Origin: Gracilibacillus ureilyticus
GTDB lineage: Bacteria; Bacillota; Bacilli; Bacillales; Amphibacillaceae
Assembly: GCF_900111195.1 (NCBI RefSeq)
Contig: NZ_FOGL01000001.1
Coordinates: forward strand, 186,001 to 250,000
Direction: 5' to 3'
Length of the DNA stretch: 64,000 nucleotides
Under the pieces are notes generated by a model. That model was not told the DNA's origin. It did no database searches and saw only the letters and a list, made by a program, of their open reading frames with translations. This document shows, piece by piece, positions 1 to 12,995 of the stretch; within the stretch, counting starts at the first letter, position 1; every line of letters starts with the position of its first letter. The position numbers were made by a program, and so were the translations under genes.

Positions 1-2
1 TT

Positions 3-383
3 GTGTTTGCTTCTTATCAGTTAAAAAGAATAATGATGAAATATGAACGATTGAGAAAACAATACCTTGAGGTTAAGGGATACGATGATCCACATTATTT
101 CCTGAATTATAAGGGTGATCCAATTACTCATGCTACTGTTCACAATGTGGTAAAAGAGGCAGCCACGAGAGCAGGAGTTAAGGACGCACATCCTCATAAA
201 TTTCGTCATTTCTATGCGGTTGAGGTAATCAGCAACGAAAAGGCAAATATTGATTTATTTAGTGTTAGCAAACTTTTGGGGCATTCTCAAGTATCTACTA
301 CCCAGATATATCTACAATCATTAACTAATGAACAATTAAAAATAAAAGCAAATAACTCAAGTCCATTGGCTAAATTCAAATAA
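3..383 (+). CDS. Tyrosine recombinase/integrase, C-terminal part (5' end cut by window edge)
   Basis: This is the catalytic C-terminal end of a phage-integrase-family site-specific recombinase, which cuts and rejoins DNA through a tyrosine. The fragment shows the family signature in order: HPHKFRH (H-x-x-R box), KLLGHSQVSTTQIYLQ (second His box with the tyrosine nucleophile). The family is usually 280-400 residues, so only the last third is here. The GTG at position 3 is just the first possible start and probably internal. An imperfect inverted repeat follows within 60 bp. The gene is expected to mobilise the island to its right or one lying to its left; the window cannot tell which. Confidence 0.85.
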   Translation: MFASYQLKRIMMKYERLRKQYLEVKGYDDPHYFLNYKGDPITHATVHNVVKEAATRAGVKDAHPHKFRHFYAVEVISNEKANIDLFSVSKLLGHSQVSTTQIYLQSLTNEQLKIKANNSSPLAKFK

Positions 384-556: not shown

Positions 557-1366
557 ATGTATCAATCCAAGATAGAATCGTTTAAATCTTATTCCAATTT
601 TAAGTCTTTAAAAGACTTTAACAATAACGTCGAAATGTTTTTAGCCTGCCATAAGCAAGATTTTACTAAATCAGAATATATCGCTTTTAGAAGATTAACT
701 AAGTTTTGCGCAAAAATATTTGGTGTGTCCAATGCGCGTATAGATACTATTGTACAAGCTACCAAAGACGATAATGGTGGTATTAGCCGATCTACGTTTA
801 AACGTATGGTAAAAAAAGCGAAGAAATTGGGTATCTTATCAGTTCATGAGTTGAAACGTGCTAATCAATCGCAATCATCCAATCTTTATGTATTTGAATC
901 TTTTCGGACTTCAATTGAACCACCGATTGAAAATGCAAAGAACGACCAAAATGCTATTTTATCAATGGCTGTAACAACTCGAATAAATGAGCAATTGAAC
1001 CGCCATAAAACTAGCAATAATTCTAAAACTAATAATCTATTAATTAATACGTATTATGCAAAGCCATATCAGGCTATCTCAGAGGCTATAAGAATATTTT
1101 TAGGTTATGACTCTAAAAAGATAGCAAGTCGGTTGTATGGGGTTTATTTAGGGCAAACAAAGTCACTTAGAGCAACAGAATATTACACCAATGAGGGACA
1201 AGCTGAATTAATTGAAGTGGCTATTTCCGCAATACAGACAACATTTCTTGCGAGTAAAAGAAAAAGCATCCAGAACATTGCTGGATACTTTAATGGAGTT
1301 TTAAGTAAGATGCTTGATGATTTAATGACATTAGATATGTGTATTATAGGTTCCGATTATCCGTAG
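557..1366 (+). CDS. Winged-helix/HTH DNA-binding protein, plasmid/phage replication type
   Basis: A 269-residue protein with a strong ribosome-binding site (GGGAGGCGG) before its ATG. Residues about 40-115 look like a winged-helix domain: a 'TKSEYIAFRRLTKF' helix, a 'GGISRSTFKRMVKKAKKLG' recognition segment and a following 'GILSVHELKR' wing. Proteins of this shape occur on Bacillus plasmids and prophages, often as putative replication or regulatory proteins. The C-terminal half is polar, helical and not recognised. Its last 23 bp overlap the convergent Xre gene. A role in replication of the element is inference; it could also be a regulator. Confidence 0.6.
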   Translation: MYQSKIESFKSYSNFKSLKDFNNNVEMFLACHKQDFTKSEYIAFRRLTKFCAKIFGVSNARIDTIVQATKDDNGGISRSTFKRMVKKAKKLGILSVHELKRANQSQSSNLYVFESFRTSIEPPIENAKNDQNAILSMAVTTRINEQLNRHKTSNNSKTNNLLINTYYAKPYQAISEAIRIFLGYDSKKIASRLYGVYLGQTKSLRATEYYTNEGQAELIEVAISAIQTTFLASKRKSIQNIAGYFNGVLSKMLDDLMTLDMCIIGSDYP

Positions 1367-1568
1367 GTACAAATTCAATTATGTCTACTGTTTGGCACTT
1401 AAATATATGGCATAGATGCTCTAATGTCTCAAACTGTATACCTTTTACTTTATCGTTTAATAAATTACTAATGGTATTACGATGCAATTCATTATTCGAT
1501 TTTCTGACAAGATCAGAAGTGGTCATATCGTGCTTATCCATTAGTTCTTTTAATTTAACTTTTATCAT
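1344..1568 (-). CDS. Small Xre/Cro-C1 family repressor
   Basis: A 74-residue, single-domain helix-turn-helix protein. The segment 'MTTSDLVRKSNNELHRNTISNLLND' fits the HTH (residues about 14-38), followed by the usual helix 'FETLEHLCHIFKC' and the DIIEF end typical of YozG-like Xre proteins. It is transcribed away from the gene at 1699, and the shared 130-bp gap carries three similar dyads. It is therefore probably autoregulatory and controls the rightward small-gene operon. The ribosome-binding site lies in GGGAGATGATT just before the ATG. Confidence 0.85.
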   Translation of the reverse strand: MIKVKLKELMDKHDMTTSDLVRKSNNELHRNTISNLLNDKVKGIQFETLEHLCHIFKCQTVDIIEFVPTDNRNL

Positions 1569-3450: not shown

Positions 3451-3720
3451 TTGAAAACAGTATTTGATCAAATTATGAATGATGAAATCTTTAAGAAACT
3501 AGTGTTAATTGAGTTCGGATTTAGTGAAATTGAGCCAAGGGAAGTCGAAGAGTGGTTTAAATGTGAATATCCAATGGAATATGAGGAATTTAAGCAAGTT
3601 TTCAAAAATGGAAATGTAGTTGGGTTTAATCCTAGATTAGTTGAAGCAACCACACCAGAAGAAAGAAACGAAATATTAGATAAATTTTTTGCTAAATTAG
3701 AAGGAGGTGACAAAGAATAA
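3451..3720 (+). CDS. Orphan 89-aa acidic protein, TTG start
   Basis: GGAGG lies 9 bases before TTG at 3451. The protein is acidic and helical, with the segment 'WFKCEYPMEYEEFKQVFKNG'. A loosely similar 'KNEYPEIYKQILLDNEV' ends the protein at 5395 on the other side of the IS element, so the two may be distant relatives (weak). Function unknown. Its 3' end holds the AGGAGGTGA that would serve the next, damaged gene. Confidence 0.5.
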   Translation: MKTVFDQIMNDEIFKKLVLIEFGFSEIEPREVEEWFKCEYPMEYEEFKQVFKNGNVVGFNPRLVEATTPEERNEILDKFFAKLEGGDKE

Positions 3721-3935
3721 ACAAGCTTTTAGTTCATGTTAAAACAGAAGACAACCAATACATTGGAATGAAGGTGTTAGATAATGGTTATAAGCCAATA
3801 TTAAGCGTTTCTAGTGGTTCATTCAGCTTGGACAATGATCTTATCATCTAAGCTACAAGAACACTCAGAAAACGTCTGAAAGCCGAAATATTAATGCTTG
3901 GAACAGTGTACGATTACTTAACGGAAATAAATTAA
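3717..3935 (+). pseudogene. Decayed small gene: ATA in place of start codon and one in-frame TAA
   Basis: A perfect Shine-Dalgarno sequence AGGAGGTGA (3702-3710) stands 6 bases before ATA at 3717. From there a frame reads INKLLVHVKTEDNQYIGMKV and continues to LDNDLII, then TAA at 3849-3851. It resumes in the same frame as ATRTLRKRLKAEILMLGTVY and on to a second stop at 3935. The most economical reading is a 72-residue gene coupled to the preceding one that lost its ATG and gained a nonsense codon. Non-canonical ATA initiation giving a 44-residue product is the alternative. Confidence 0.5.
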
Positions 3936-4027
3936 TCGCTTATTTTGGCTAAGTAAGAAAACAAAAATCAAATATTAAAGGAGTGGATCTACGTCAAGTT
4001 TCTGGACACAAAAAGATTAAGTTTTTT

Positions 4028-4169: not shown

Positions 4170-4988
4170 TTAAGCTGCTACACGACACATTTTTTCATAC
4201 TCATCGGGTGTGACATAACCGATGCTGCCATGAATTCGTTTGCGATTATACCAGCCTTCAATGTACTGAAATAGGGCCATTCTCGCAGTCTCAAAGTTTT
4301 CATATTGGGTTCGATAGACTTCTTCTTTTTTCAGGGTGGCGTGAAAGGATTCAATGCAAGCATTGTCATAGGGACATCCTTTCCGACTGAATGACGCAAT
4401 CATTTCGTGGTTTTTTAGTTGTTCTTGAAATGCTTCACTGGTGTATTGCGTACCTAAATCGGTATGAATAATCAGACCTGGTTCTGGCTTTTGGGCTTGC
4501 ACGGCGTTTTCCAAAGCCTCAAGAACGAGTTCTGTTGTCATCGTGCGAGAAAATTTATAACCAACGATTTTCTTTGTATGCAAATCGAGTACGGATGCTA
4601 GGTAGCACCAGCTATCTCGAAGTGTATGGATATACGTAATATCAGCTACCCATTTTTCATTAATCGATGTCGTTGTAAAGTCCTGTTCTAGTACGTTTTC
4701 ACGCTCTTCTACTGGTGTTTGTGTAGGTGTTGGACGAAACTTTTTCGTGATGTTTGATTGAATACCTGCTTGTTTCATAAGACGTTGAACCCTTTTCAAG
4801 CTACATGAATAGCCTTCTTTTAAAAGTTCTCTATGAATTTTTGGTGCGCCATAGCGACCTTTGCTTTCTTTGTGAATGACTTTAATACGTTCTAGTAGTT
4901 CTTCGTTGGCTACGTGATAACGATTAGGCTTCTTATGAAATGACTGATAATACGTACTTCTAGGCATCTCTAAAACGCGACACATCAC
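4170..4988 (-). CDS. IS3-family transposase orfB (DDE integrase core)
   Basis: The catalytic half of an IS3/IS150-type transposase, which cuts and pastes the element through a two-metal DDE site. N-terminal HTH_21-like region (residues about 35-90, 'KGRYGAPKIHRELLKEGYSC'), then the integrase core with D in 'WVADITYI', D in 'IIHTDLGTQYTS' and E in 'CIESFHATLKKEE'. All three acidic residues are present, so the core looks intact. The frame stays open upstream of the first possible start and overlaps orfA, so the true product is probably the OrfAB fusion made by -1 frameshifting at AGAAAATAG near 5045. Confidence 0.92.
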   Translation of the reverse strand: MMCRVLEMPRSTYYQSFHKKPNRYHVANEELLERIKVIHKESKGRYGAPKIHRELLKEGYSCSLKRVQRLMKQAGIQSNITKKFRPTPTQTPVEERENVLEQDFTTTSINEKWVADITYIHTLRDSWCYLASVLDLHTKKIVGYKFSRTMTTELVLEALENAVQAQKPEPGLIIHTDLGTQYTSEAFQEQLKNHEMIASFSRKGCPYDNACIESFHATLKKEEVYRTQYENFETARMALFQYIEGWYNRKRIHGSIGYVTPDEYEKMCRVAA

Positions 4989-5044
4989 TTGAATGGGATG
5001 ATGTTCGCTTTCACTTGTAATGTGGTCGATTAGTTCCTGCTCAT

Positions 5045-5305
5045 CTATTTTCTCGCGAATATGGTCATAGCCTTTTTTAAGATTTCAAGCTCCTGTTTTA
5101 AACGAAGATTTTCCTTTTGGATAGCCTCCACGTCGGACGCAGTTAACTCCTGTGTCCCCTCAATTGGAGAGTGCTGCTTAATCCATTTATAGATGGTTAC
5201 TTCTGAAACACCATATTCGCTAGAGAGTTGGCTGACCGGCGTACCTGAGCGATAAAGCTCAACTACAGTTTGTTTGAATTCTTGGTTATAACGTTTTTGA
5301 CTCAT
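5045..5305 (-). CDS. IS3-family transposase orfA (HTH_Tnp_1)
   Basis: An 86-residue protein. The N-terminal helix-turn-helix 'YNQEFKQTVVELYRSGTPVS' with 'YGVSEVTIYKWIKQH' binds the element's terminal repeats in this family. A C-terminal leucine-zipper-like coiled coil follows ('ENLRLKQELEILKKAM'). The stop codon sits directly after an A4 slip site, AGAAAATAG. A -1 slip there continues into the orfB frame without a stop, the usual way IS3 elements make OrfAB. Confidence 0.9.
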   Translation of the reverse strand: MSQKRYNQEFKQTVVELYRSGTPVSQLSSEYGVSEVTIYKWIKQHSPIEGTQELTASDVEAIQKENLRLKQELEILKKAMTIFARK

Positions 5306-5887: not shown

Positions 5888-7528
5888 ATGGAAAATACGG
5901 AATATCTTAGAATCAATCCATTTGGAGGATGGGAAATAAAAGGGAATAATTATGAAATTCCAATAAAGAGTGAAGTCGTAAAAAGGAAATATCCAGAAGA
6001 ATACGAAAAGCAAATTGCTAATGGACATAATAAAGATTTTTTATGGGAAACCATATTAACTAAAGAAGATTATCAGAATAAAGATCAAGTATTTCAGCAA
6101 TATGTTGAAAAATGGAAGCCTAAACTTGAAAAAGAATTACATAATAATATTGAAAAATCAATACATAATGAGAAGGGAACGAAAGAATCTTATGAAATTT
6201 CAAACAACAAAAATGAAATAAATTATAAAGGGAATAAATGGGATGTAAAGAATTTTTTTAGTAAGGAAAAGAATAAATTTCTACCATCTAAACTAGGTCA
6301 AGCAATAAATGAAGAAAAACATACTTTCTTTGATGGTAGCACCCTTTATTTTTATGAGAATGGTGTTTACTTACCTAATGGTGAACCTAAGATAAATAAT
6401 GCTATCCAAAGAATATTGAAAGATGAAAGTTCTTCACATAGAAAAAGAGAAGTAATTGATTGGATTAAAACGAATAACGATATTAGAACTTCAAGTATTA
6501 AAGTGAATCCTGATGATGGTTGGATTAATGTAAAGAATGGTTTGCTTAATCTAGAAACTAGAGAATTAAAAGCACATACACATAAAAGAGTATCAACTGT
6601 TCAATTGCCGATTACATATGATCCTAAAGCTAATAATTCAATTGTAAGTGATTTTATTGGAAGCATCGTACATAATGAAACAATTCCATTAATCTATGAA
6701 ATGATTGGATATATTTTAACAAATGATACGAAAGCGCAAAAAGCCTTCATATTACATAGTAGTGGTGGAAGTGGTAAATCAGTAGTAGTTAGCATGTTAC
6801 AAGCATTTGTTGGTAAAGGTAACTATTCTACTGTTCCAGCACAAGATATTGACGGTGACAAATTTAGTGCAATTCGCTTAAAAGATAAAGTGTTGAACAT
6901 AGTAGATGATATGAAACGTCAACGCTTTGCAGATACAGGTAAGTTTAAATCATCTGTTACAGGTGGCGAAATATTGGTAGAAGAAAAAGGCAAACCACAG
7001 GAAATCATTAAACCAATTGCAAAGCACATCTTTTGCATGAATGCTATACCTGATTCTAGTGATATGTCTGTTGCATGGTTAGATAGATGGATAATGATTC
7101 CACTTCCATACCGTTTTAGAGGTGGCAAAGGCGAAGATAAAGATTTACCTGAAAAGCTGACAACTGAAAAATCGCTATCCACATTGTTAAATGTAGCGTT
7201 GAATGGGTTGGATAGATTGAGGTCAAACAATTATCGATTTTCAGAAAATGAACATACTGAAAAGATGAAAAACGATCATATGAAAGAATCTAATCCTATT
7301 GAGTTGTTTGTTGATGAAATTTGCCAATTGAAAGATGATGCGGAGATTATTGGTGACATTTTATTTAAATCCTATAAAACATACTGCGAAGAAAATGGTT
7401 ATAGACCATTATCGAAAATTAAATTTAATAAACAAATAAGAAATACATATGATTTGGAAAATCCAAGCGATTACAGACCAAGAAAAAATGATAGAAAGCC
7501 GACATGGAGAGGAATTTGTTTTATTTAA
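5888..7528 (+). CDS. P4-type primase/helicase protein (SF3 helicase, D5_N)
   Basis: A 546-residue replication ATPase. The N-terminus (1-150) is divergent, with no clear archaeo-eukaryotic primase motif. Residues about 150-270 fit the D5_N region ('WINVKNGLLNLETRELKAHT'). The SF3 helicase core follows: Walker A SSGGSGKS at about 291-298, Walker B-like 'VLNIVDDMKR' at about 335, sensor 'FCMNAIPDSSD', and 'AWLDRWIMIPLPYRF' carrying the arginine finger. A C-terminal winged-helix DNA-binding domain is likely. Such proteins start replication of P4-like satellites, ICEs and plasmids at nearby repeats. Iterated repeats begin 3 bp after its stop, which fits. Confidence 0.88.
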   Translation: MENTEYLRINPFGGWEIKGNNYEIPIKSEVVKRKYPEEYEKQIANGHNKDFLWETILTKEDYQNKDQVFQQYVEKWKPKLEKELHNNIEKSIHNEKGTKESYEISNNKNEINYKGNKWDVKNFFSKEKNKFLPSKLGQAINEEKHTFFDGSTLYFYENGVYLPNGEPKINNAIQRILKDESSSHRKREVIDWIKTNNDIRTSSIKVNPDDGWINVKNGLLNLETRELKAHTHKRVSTVQLPITYDPKANNSIVSDFIGSIVHNETIPLIYEMIGYILTNDTKAQKAFILHSSGGSGKSVVVSMLQAFVGKGNYSTVPAQDIDGDKFSAIRLKDKVLNIVDDMKRQRFADTGKFKSSVTGGEILVEEKGKPQEIIKPIAKHIFCMNAIPDSSDMSVAWLDRWIMIPLPYRFRGGKGEDKDLPEKLTTEKSLSTLLNVALNGLDRLRSNNYRFSENEHTEKMKNDHMKESNPIELFVDEICQLKDDAEIIGDILFKSYKTYCEENGYRPLSKIKFNKQIRNTYDLENPSDYRPRKNDRKPTWRGICFI

Positions 7529-7905
7529 AGGTGGTACATACTTTTAATAAATGGTACATACTTTTGGGGGATTGGCACATACTTTCAAAAAAATGTGTTC
7601 CACCTCTATCCTTGAGCTATAAGGGTTTTAAGGGTATTGGTACATAGTATCATACTTTTTTCTAAGTCAGTGTAGTTTAAGAAATAATAACATACATACA
7701 TAAAAGATTATATTATATATCGAGTTGTTGAATTTTATGAAACTGTGTACCACTTTTGTCCTATTCATTGGGAGAGTATAGGTATAGGTGACACATACTT
7801 TCAAAAAGTGTGTTCCTTCTGTGTACCACTTGAAAAAGCGTGTACCACTAAAACAATACTATTCAACAAATAAAGTAAGTATTACTAAGGTTAGGAGAAA
7901 TGTAA
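7529..7905. repeat. Iterated repeats, candidate replication origin
   Basis: No gene. TGGTACATACTTTT occurs at 7532-7545 and 7552-7565. TGGCACATACTTTC follows at 7573-7586, and related copies lie at 7638-7661 and 7788-7802. Copies in the opposite direction (GTGTTCC or GTGTACCAC after an A-run) lie at 7587-7604, 7744-7757, 7802-7816, 7820-7830 and 7832-7849. The first three are 20-21 bp apart, two helical turns. A very AT-rich stretch at 7680-7720 lies between the two clusters. The layout fits an iteron origin served by the helicase gene just upstream (inference). Confidence 0.65.
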
Positions 7906-8646
7906 ATGGCAACAAACAATCCTCATTACATATTCAACAAGGAAGATTTTCCGTATATTGAACAGATTTATGAATTTGATCAAAAATATAATAAAGATAA
8001 AGATTTAATCTATCACATGACATTTACGGAGTATTGGGATGATGTAAATAAACACGGTATTACTCCTCAAGCAAAATATAGAATTTATCCAATCTCAAAA
8101 GGTTTTATGGACTATAACAGAATAGGAGCTTACAACCATGTGCAGGCTTTAATGAAGTATTACATTAAATTTCTGCCTTTTCATTTAGACATCACAAATG
8201 AATATGTTCAATTGCTTTTTTCGTTACTAAACAAGTGTGTGCGTCAATATGTACCATATAAACCTAGAACTTATCTAACCGATGATATAAGCTATTACAT
8301 TGATATTTTTTATCCTTGTTATGAACAACAAGTAAAAGATAATGGAACATTTAAAATAGTTGCTTTTGAAAAGACAGATTTACAACTTGTAAAGATGATA
8401 CGTGTTAAGCAAGATATTGCTCGTTTTTTTGTTGAAGAGAATTTAAGGGTAAGGAAAAATATGGATATATTATATGAATTTGATGAAAATATGGATGACA
8501 CTATAAAAGAATTAATATTATCAGTTGGTGAAAAAGTAGAGAATAAGGAATATATTACGTTTAACACAATTCCAATCGATCTAGCAAAATATATCATTCA
8601 TATTGAAGATGATGTAGTTGTAGAAACAGAAAATAAGAAAATATAA
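7906..8646 (+). CDS. Orphan 246-aa protein next to the repeats
   Basis: Not recognised. TTAGGAG precedes the ATG. The protein is soluble and rich in Tyr, Asp and Ile. The first half contains 'LIYHMTFTEYWDDVNKHGIT', reminiscent of the opening of ADP-ribosyl/DUF4433-like folds ('H-T-x-x-x-x-x-x-I-x-x-G-I'), but no catalytic set can be traced. It sits between the iterons and the resolvase, so it may be a replication, partition or defence gene of the element. No function is claimed. Confidence 0.55.
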   Translation: MATNNPHYIFNKEDFPYIEQIYEFDQKYNKDKDLIYHMTFTEYWDDVNKHGITPQAKYRIYPISKGFMDYNRIGAYNHVQALMKYYIKFLPFHLDITNEYVQLLFSLLNKCVRQYVPYKPRTYLTDDISYYIDIFYPCYEQQVKDNGTFKIVAFEKTDLQLVKMIRVKQDIARFFVEENLRVRKNMDILYEFDENMDDTIKELILSVGEKVENKEYITFNTIPIDLAKYIIHIEDDVVVETENKKI

Positions 8647-10115: not shown

Positions 10116-10541
10116 TTAAATTATCCCACTTAAATCCCTATTTATTTTACTCCCCGAAAACCTCAATACTGTCCATCCTTTTCGCTTCAAACACCTATCT
10201 CTTTTCCTGTCATGTGCCTTTTGTTCCGGTGAAGAGTGGTAAGCCTCCCCATCACATTCAATTGCAATCATTTTAGAAGGTAATGCTAAATCAATCCTAT
10301 ATTTACCTACAGAATATTGTGGTGTGGGGTGTAGTCCGTATTGTATTAATCCCTTATATACCTGTCTTTCAATGTATGATTCACATTGTGTGATATTAAA
10401 TTCATAAACAGATATCGGTTTTCCTTTGTCTTTTGGATTAATTCCAATTACAACATAGATGTAAAGTATTATTATTAAGGCAATAATAATGCAATCAAAT
10501 TCATTTATGACATCCTCACTTTTTAGCTTGAGTATTGCCAT
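10116..10541 (-). CDS. Membrane-anchored DUF559/Vsr-like nuclease (PD-(D/E)XK fold)
   Basis: A 141-residue protein. Residues about 15-35 ('FDCIIIALIIILYIYVVIG') form a transmembrane segment. The rest fits the DUF559/very-short-patch-repair-like nuclease core. E58 lies in 'ESYIERQVYKGL', D84 in 'GKYRIDLALPS' and the E-x-D pair E95/D97 in 'IAIECDGEAYHSS', followed by 'DRKRDRCLKRKGWTVLRFSG'. These residues match the catalytic order of the fold. A membrane anchor on such a nuclease is uncommon and suggests action on DNA at the envelope. Its biological role (defence, transfer, repair) is open. Confidence 0.75.
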   Translation of the reverse strand: MAILKLKSEDVINEFDCIIIALIIILYIYVVIGINPKDKGKPISVYEFNITQCESYIERQVYKGLIQYGLHPTPQYSVGKYRIDLALPSKMIAIECDGEAYHSSPEQKAHDRKRDRCLKRKGWTVLRFSGSKINRDLSGII

Positions 10542-12704: not shown

Positions 12705-12905
12705 ATAAGCAAACTATATCTTTTCTTGATTGGAGGCACTATTTATGGTATATTTTACTCAACAGAAAGAGCGGTTTGCATAGTATTTATAAATCCTATT
12801 ATATCCATGCTAAGAACATTAATGATGCAAATGGGACAAAAACCATCGCAGAAGAAAATCAAACAAATGATGCGCGCGATGAATAACCAGGTGGATAATA
12901 AATAA
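12705..12905 (+). pseudogene. yneF: yneF remnant (UPF0154), no ATG start
   Basis: The C-terminal half reads MLRTLMMQMGQKPSQKKIKQ then MMRAMNNQVDNK. From memory this matches the conserved YneF tail of B. subtilis (QMLRMMMMQMGMKPSQKKIN...). The same frame continues upstream through a membrane-like stretch 'YLFLIGGTIYGIFYSTERA' to an ATA at 12705 with AGGAAAAG before it, then a stop. The well-conserved GFFIARKY region is not preserved, and there is no ATG except the internal one at 12807, which has no ribosome-binding site. I read it as a decayed or wrongly started yneF next to the island edge. Its position before ccdA agrees with B. subtilis order. Confidence 0.6.
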
Positions 12906-12995
12906 TGTAACATAATTGTTGAAATAGAATCCTTGCTTATTTAAAGCAGGGGTTTTATGCTATTTATAGAACAATTATGATTTGGAGTGACTGTA

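Follow-up and report, generated by a model that had tools for sequence, protein, structure and literature searches.

What is the function of the short, related repeats that begin directly behind a P4-type helicase gene of Gracilibacillus ureilyticus? We analyzed a stretch of 64,000 nucleotides (G000:C23:186001-250000, hereafter the window), for which an initial annotation had proposed a new replication origin at positions 7532-7849. According to our sequence comparisons, this interval is very probably a replication origin next to its own initiator gene, known in kind and new in its repeat word. The initial interpretation is partly supported: the proposed function holds up, and the class is one already known from P4, SaPIs/PICIs, and Sfi21.

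Repeats directly behind the helicase gene

The helicase reading frame is intact, and its product matched the Pfam families DUF5906, D5_N, and Pox_D5, all above cut-off, which places it in the D5/P4 family. Its homologues are annotated as phage/plasmid primases of the P4 family, and its best PDB sequence match was 7ola/7om0, the former of which we take to be SaPI5 Rep. A helicase scan of genome contigs returned no confirmed relative, and no homologue at 60% identity or more was present in the plasmid and phage collections (24 and 305 records). The features of the putative replicon are as follows.

5888..7528 (+): D5/P4-type helicase of 546 amino acids, the proposed initiator, with a C-terminal winged-helix region at about residues 466-546
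7532..7849 (no strand assigned): proposed replication origin, comprising 11 iterons, an AT-rich center, and a constant box
7533..7601: left outer iterons, on the plus strand at 7533, 7553, and 7574 and on the minus strand at 7590
7609..7626 (+): left constant box TCCTTGAGCTATAAGGGT, between opposed iterons, from de novo motif discovery
7639..7658 (+): left inner iterons, at 7639 with a degenerate copy at 7647
7650..7749: AT-rich stretch, the proposed melting region, 78-80% AT in 40-bp segments
7740..7801: right inner iterons, minus at 7740 and plus at 7790; a degenerate right box lies near 7766
7805..7846 (-): right outer iterons, at 7805, 7816, and 7835

Matching against a relative, G010 (see below), yielded 11 related sites on both strands of the interval. 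Allowing up to three mismatches on either strand, GGTACATACTTTT matched 10 times within it and 36 times in the whole window; outside 7200-8200 no 318-bp segment had more than 2 matches, and none of 100 dinucleotide shuffles of the window had more than 4. Exact GGTACA/TGTACC occurred 6 times in the interval and 34 times in the window (elsewhere at most 2 per 318 bp; shuffle maximum, 3). These window-wide counts and shuffles rule out chance clustering. The 11 cores read GGTACA (6), GGAACA (2), GGCACA (1), GACACA (1), and GTATCA (1).

The initial annotation had described at least ten related copies in both directions, three of them two helical turns apart, starting 3 bp after the helicase gene and divided by an AT-rich stretch. 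Each of these observations was borne out: the first three iterons follow one another at intervals of 20 and 21 bp, the array starts at 7532 and the helicase stop codon occupies 7526-7528, and 40-bp segments starting at 7650-7710 have the high AT content listed above, compared with 55-70% in the iteron clusters. The segment directly behind the array (start 7850) is likewise 80% AT, and the AT-richest 60 bp within 600 bp 3' of the helicase gene lie beyond the array, which counts against an origin. Both halves of the array contain an inner minus/plus pair (7590-/7639+, 49 bp; 7740-/7790+, 50 bp), and on both sides the three outer iterons are oriented inwards.

Two iteron sets with an AT-rich region between them, immediately 3' of the gene, the arrangement by which a P4/PICI rep-ori is recognized, are thus present in the window. 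P4 similarly combines a P4-type helicase, alpha, which also includes a primase part, with iterons 3' of its gene (crr, two direct 120-bp repeats around a spacer); unlike the window, it has a second origin, ori1. The Streptococcus thermophilus phage Sfi21 has an annotated 302-bp origin directly after a putative primase gene, and this origin shares iterons, an AT-rich center, and the constant box with the window, although its iteron word is another one and its C-termini lack the DGK[N/S]KR wing motif of the L009 clade discussed below. In SaPIs and PICIs, as described in excerpts of two reports, the initiator gene is followed directly on its 3' side by two iteron sets that enclose an AT-rich region (PMC6092414, PMC7581432). 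In SaPIbov1, SaPI5, and EcCICFT073, as far as these excerpts extend, the initiator helicase gene is followed by iteron sets, as in the window, but the repeat word differs, and the closest relative of the window replicon is a full prophage. Parts of the second report describe origin recognition by SaPI Rep and Cch2 through the C-terminal domain (PMC7581432). SCCmec Cch2, also a D5-type helicase, is described there as binding downstream iterons with its isolated C-terminal domain, and its putative origin has three AAGTG iterons, in contrast to the eleven longer ones of the window. The initial claim of novelty therefore stands for the repeat word, which is particular to the window, and falls for the origin class, whose layout these systems share.

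We propose that this interval serves an integrated, phage-derived element as its replication origin. The element would first excise, and the helicase would then bind the iterons via its C-terminal winged-helix domain and assemble on the two half-origins flanking the AT-rich stretch. This stretch would be melted, and unwinding and replication would start there. Binding of the iterons by the helicase C-terminus draws indirect support from a residue-base association in a related clade, presented in the last section.

An island and a complete prophage at the same site

The array and the helicase gene lie inside a 13.6-kb island integrated in yneF (repeat unit, 13,583 bp), which begins with a tyrosine recombinase gene downstream of tkt and ends at 12959. 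Its end features and a repressor-like gene are as follows.

1..383 (+): 3' part of the tyrosine recombinase gene (whole gene at 13475-14383 of L029); Pfam Phage_integrase, PHROG integrase
1344..1568 (-): Cro/C1-type repressor-like protein; Pfam HTH_26, PHROG repressor families
12807..12959 (+): right attachment copy, 153 bp that repeat the 3' part of yneF exactly (left copy at 13224-13376 of L029)

Among 14 other loci of the genus checked upstream of ccdA (17 fetched), tkt lay within 1.5 kb in 12, so these have no insert of the island's size there; the remaining two include G010. Just past the integrase gene, 557-1366 encodes a 269-amino acid protein that resembles a phage HTH DNA-binding family and, weakly, a replication initiation family, possibly a second replication or control protein. 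IS3-type transposase genes occupy 4170-5305, upstream of the helicase gene, with an rve domain in 4170-4988; the second open reading frame of this stretch is presumably an IS3-type transposase gene. The right arm encodes a restriction-endonuclease-like protein (10116-10541; MTES_1575, DUF559). PICIs are characterized by int, a divergent repressor, xis, pri-rep-ori, interference and packaging genes, and phage-induced transfer. We found an integrase, a repressor, and a rep-ori, and recognized no xis, interference, terminase, head, or tail genes among the island ORFs scanned. The island, which we did not file as a PICI, could be either a satellite or a prophage that has been shortened.

G010, another species of the genus, carries an element of about 40 kb at the same site. 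This is a full prophage, with terminase, portal, major head, and tape-measure genes, an integrase related to that of the island, and a helicase 73% identical to that of the window. All 11 sites correspond between the two arrays in order and orientation, with spacings within 1 bp except for the AT-rich gap (93 bp in the window against 104 bp in G010). We therefore rejected the notion that the array is unique to the window genome, and a pattern for two adjacent copies was found in 2 of 394 genomes, both times beside this helicase. The shared sites beside a homologue support what the initial annotation had read as the layout of an origin with an encoded initiator. In G010, all 11 cores read GGAACA, as do all 12 sites of the next relative, L031 (49% identity; GGNACA scan). 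The main difference between the window and G010 arrays is the base after GT, and 8 of their 11 core differences fall at position 3 of 6 (binomial p 6e-5).

These differences bear on whether the origin is still in use. Five of the 11 window cores read something other than GGTACA, and of the two boxes the left (7609-7626) is kept and the right degenerate; given these heterogeneous cores, the degenerate box, and the IS3-type insertion in the island, the window copy may be decaying. Still, we consider it unlikely that an origin functional in the ancestral phage is inactive in the island today, as the helicase frame is intact, and with 6 of the 11 sites having acquired the same new base and the core changes concentrated at one position, random decay is an improbable source of the pattern.

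Variable iterons and a constant box among helicase homologues

We surveyed 85 homologue loci, at about 24% identity and up and with near-duplicates included (L031/L056, L081-L083), comparing the best repeated 10-mer of each flank with 60 dinucleotide shuffles (p floor, 1/61); the flank of L024 was too short. In the first 450 bp of the 3' flank, 36 of 84 homologues reached p<=0.05, 31 of them at the floor, and 48 of 84 had no significant array. Among the latter is L027 (G000:C38), where the window genome encodes another D5-type helicase and no array was detected; a run of GAAGTTGCAAG-like repeats lies at 3690-3972 of this locus, about 1 kb behind the helicase gene. Significant repeats occurred in none of 80 5' flanks and in 2 of 82 next 450-bp downstream segments, one of which, in L070, is a displaced array, ruling out a general property of the DNA around such genes. 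Three loci of the L009 clade, L070, L115, and L130, have their array several hundred bases downstream of the helicase gene rather than right behind it. The repeat words vary widely among homologues (TGGAACA, GGTTACAAA, TGTCCCTAGA, TGTCACAAGA). A lack of conserved repeats beside homologues had been named at the outset as grounds for abandoning the origin; both the 11 sites of G010 and the imbalance between 3' and 5' flanks run the other way.

It is highly improbable that the array is instead an operator or silencing site through which the helicase or the island repressor controls downstream genes rather than the start of replication: initiators often regulate too, the island has an HTH repressor gene, and the array lies upstream of an ORF (7906-8646), but eleven iterons in two halves around an AT-rich center match annotated and tested origins, and arrays accompany helicase homologues in several elements and plasmids.

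Returning to the array as an origin, a second element, approximately CCCTTGATAyrAnnRGGT, recurs among the homologue flanks despite their differing repeat words. De novo motif discovery in 36 iteron-masked flanks (30 of the 36 array-positive ones, after six near-copies or doubtful cases were dropped, and six others picked by eye) returned nCCTTGATATAAnAGGnT. Its log-likelihood was 141.8, compared with 58-60 for three mononucleotide shuffles and 82 for 36 unmasked 5' flanks (250 restarts for the real set, 120 for the controls). When trained on 21 order-level loci, the motif reached p<=0.05 in 9 of 15 test loci (13 phylum-level loci and two phage or plasmid records), where the mean best score was 8.3 versus 3.0-3.6 in controls (Mann-Whitney 3e-4). 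The reverse cross-validation gave 13 of 21 loci at p<=0.05 (4.5e-5), with G010 at p 0.21 and the window at p 0.065; the left box of the window scored p 0.005 with the motif partly trained on this site and p 0.065 with the one trained without it. The shuffles, the 5' flanks, and then the cross-validation led us to reject a composition artefact.

In the annotated Sfi21 origin the box scored p 0.005 with a motif trained without Sfi21, and a second site exceeded the 95% shuffle level; among distinct Sfi21-type flanks, 12 of 20 reached p<=0.05 (short flanks excluded 5 of 36 loci, and L184 was left out). The same threshold was reached in 28 of 30 IMG/VR flanks scored, most of them close kin of training members, and the box was present in S. 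epidermidis PI-Sepi-HH2 (p 0.01). By comparison, it was found in 2 and 5 of 42 array-less loci, and, unlike in the window, it was not found in P4 crr or ori1 (p 0.37 each). Among 31 loci chosen for a test of geometry, the AT-richest 60 bp lay between boxes in all 27 with at least two boxes; IMG/VR loci from a single clade account for 20 of the 27, and the window has one box and was not counted here. The two flanking boxes are separated by 145-167 bp in 23 of the 27 and by 294-299 bp in L009, L116, and L135; in L121 the distance is 130 or 153 bp, depending on the hit counted. The box may be a further contact of the initiator or a site for a host factor.

A residue of the initiator and a base of its repeats

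A second comparative finding came from the L009 clade. We assembled 28 IMG/VR loci, 77-83% identical to L009, and five genome loci, which gave 30 usable flanks after L136 (truncated gene), L139 (no flank), and L129 (short flank) were dropped; iteron sites were oriented by a fixed rule, and the pattern was spotted by eye before it was tested. Proteins with Asn in the DGKNKR tail had T after GT in 16 of 16 cases, those with a Ser tail had A (12) or G (1) in 13 of 13, and one Val tail went with T; in L008 and L140 the base call is a narrow majority. Counting distinct Asn and Ser tails, the split was 12/0 versus 0/12 (Fisher 7e-7). On a helicase tree built without the last 75 residues (29 rows), the residue changed 7 times and the base 7 times, in lockstep. 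Members of this clade also have TTTTTGGTCAAA/GGTCACGA-type repeated words near the helicase end, besides the iterons (L140, 1-750 bp past the helicase stop, and likewise L128). For the Sfi21 clade no comparison of residue and base was possible, its C-termini being without that wing motif.

The residue may lie in the wing of a putative RFX-like domain. PF02257 (RFX) matched all 9 C-termini tried, weakly (E 2e-6 to 3.5e-3, 1 above cut-off), and the same 9 also matched Pox_D5; RFX5 and hRFX1 chains gave E 0.07 and 0.16. Excerpts of the RFX literature give the half-site as GTNRCC (PMC5752003) and describe the wing of RFX proteins as contacting the major groove (PMC2533330). The GTnACC of the related clade fits this half-site, whereas the TGTACC of the window does not. 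The wing reads NDRK in the window helicase and NNKK in that of G010; mapping this difference onto the Asn/Ser column was rejected, since the alignments do not bring the two into one column, and we do not claim it.

The association suggests that, in these relatives, the protein and one base in each of the repeats it reads change in concert. The Asn/Ser residue could also be a passenger, with the C-terminus and the origin swapped as one block and other residues reading the base, which we regard as possible if somewhat doubtful. C-terminus and origin are genomic neighbors that seem to travel together, L133 and L134 have a body in common with L118 and a different tail and word, and the switches on well-supported branches amount to 5 independent pairs, all in the same direction (sign test 0.0625). 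Against such a block swap, the Asn/Ser column was the single perfect predictor among 325 variable columns in 27 distinct proteins (next best, 0.81), and the wing of RFX proteins is, as noted, described as a major-groove contact.

Reading both findings together, with the Asn/Ser residue as the one that sets the base, we tentatively suggest, at somewhat short of an even chance, that origins of this type in Bacillota phages and satellites follow a hidden two-part grammar: a constant half-origin box with a shared reader, and variable iterons read by an RFX-like wing in which one residue sets one base (Asn, T; Ser, A/G). The window array would then be part-way through a re-wording, with 6 of 11 sites switched and 2 still in the form of its relatives. 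A search of open-license literature, with subscription papers mostly outside its coverage, found nothing on the constant box or the residue-base link in such origins, and we consider the novelty of both provisional.

Taken alone, the window would add one more P4/PICI-type origin, now linked to a complete prophage relative. The interest rests on the two comparative findings, the box and the residue-base link, all of the evidence being computational. A box that persists while the iteron words change would be an undescribed component of a well-studied class of origins. The one-residue, one-base switches would amount to a natural experiment, in which an initiator changes along with the roughly ten copies of its site, and they would also bear on how related phages and satellites within one cell avoid firing each other's origins.
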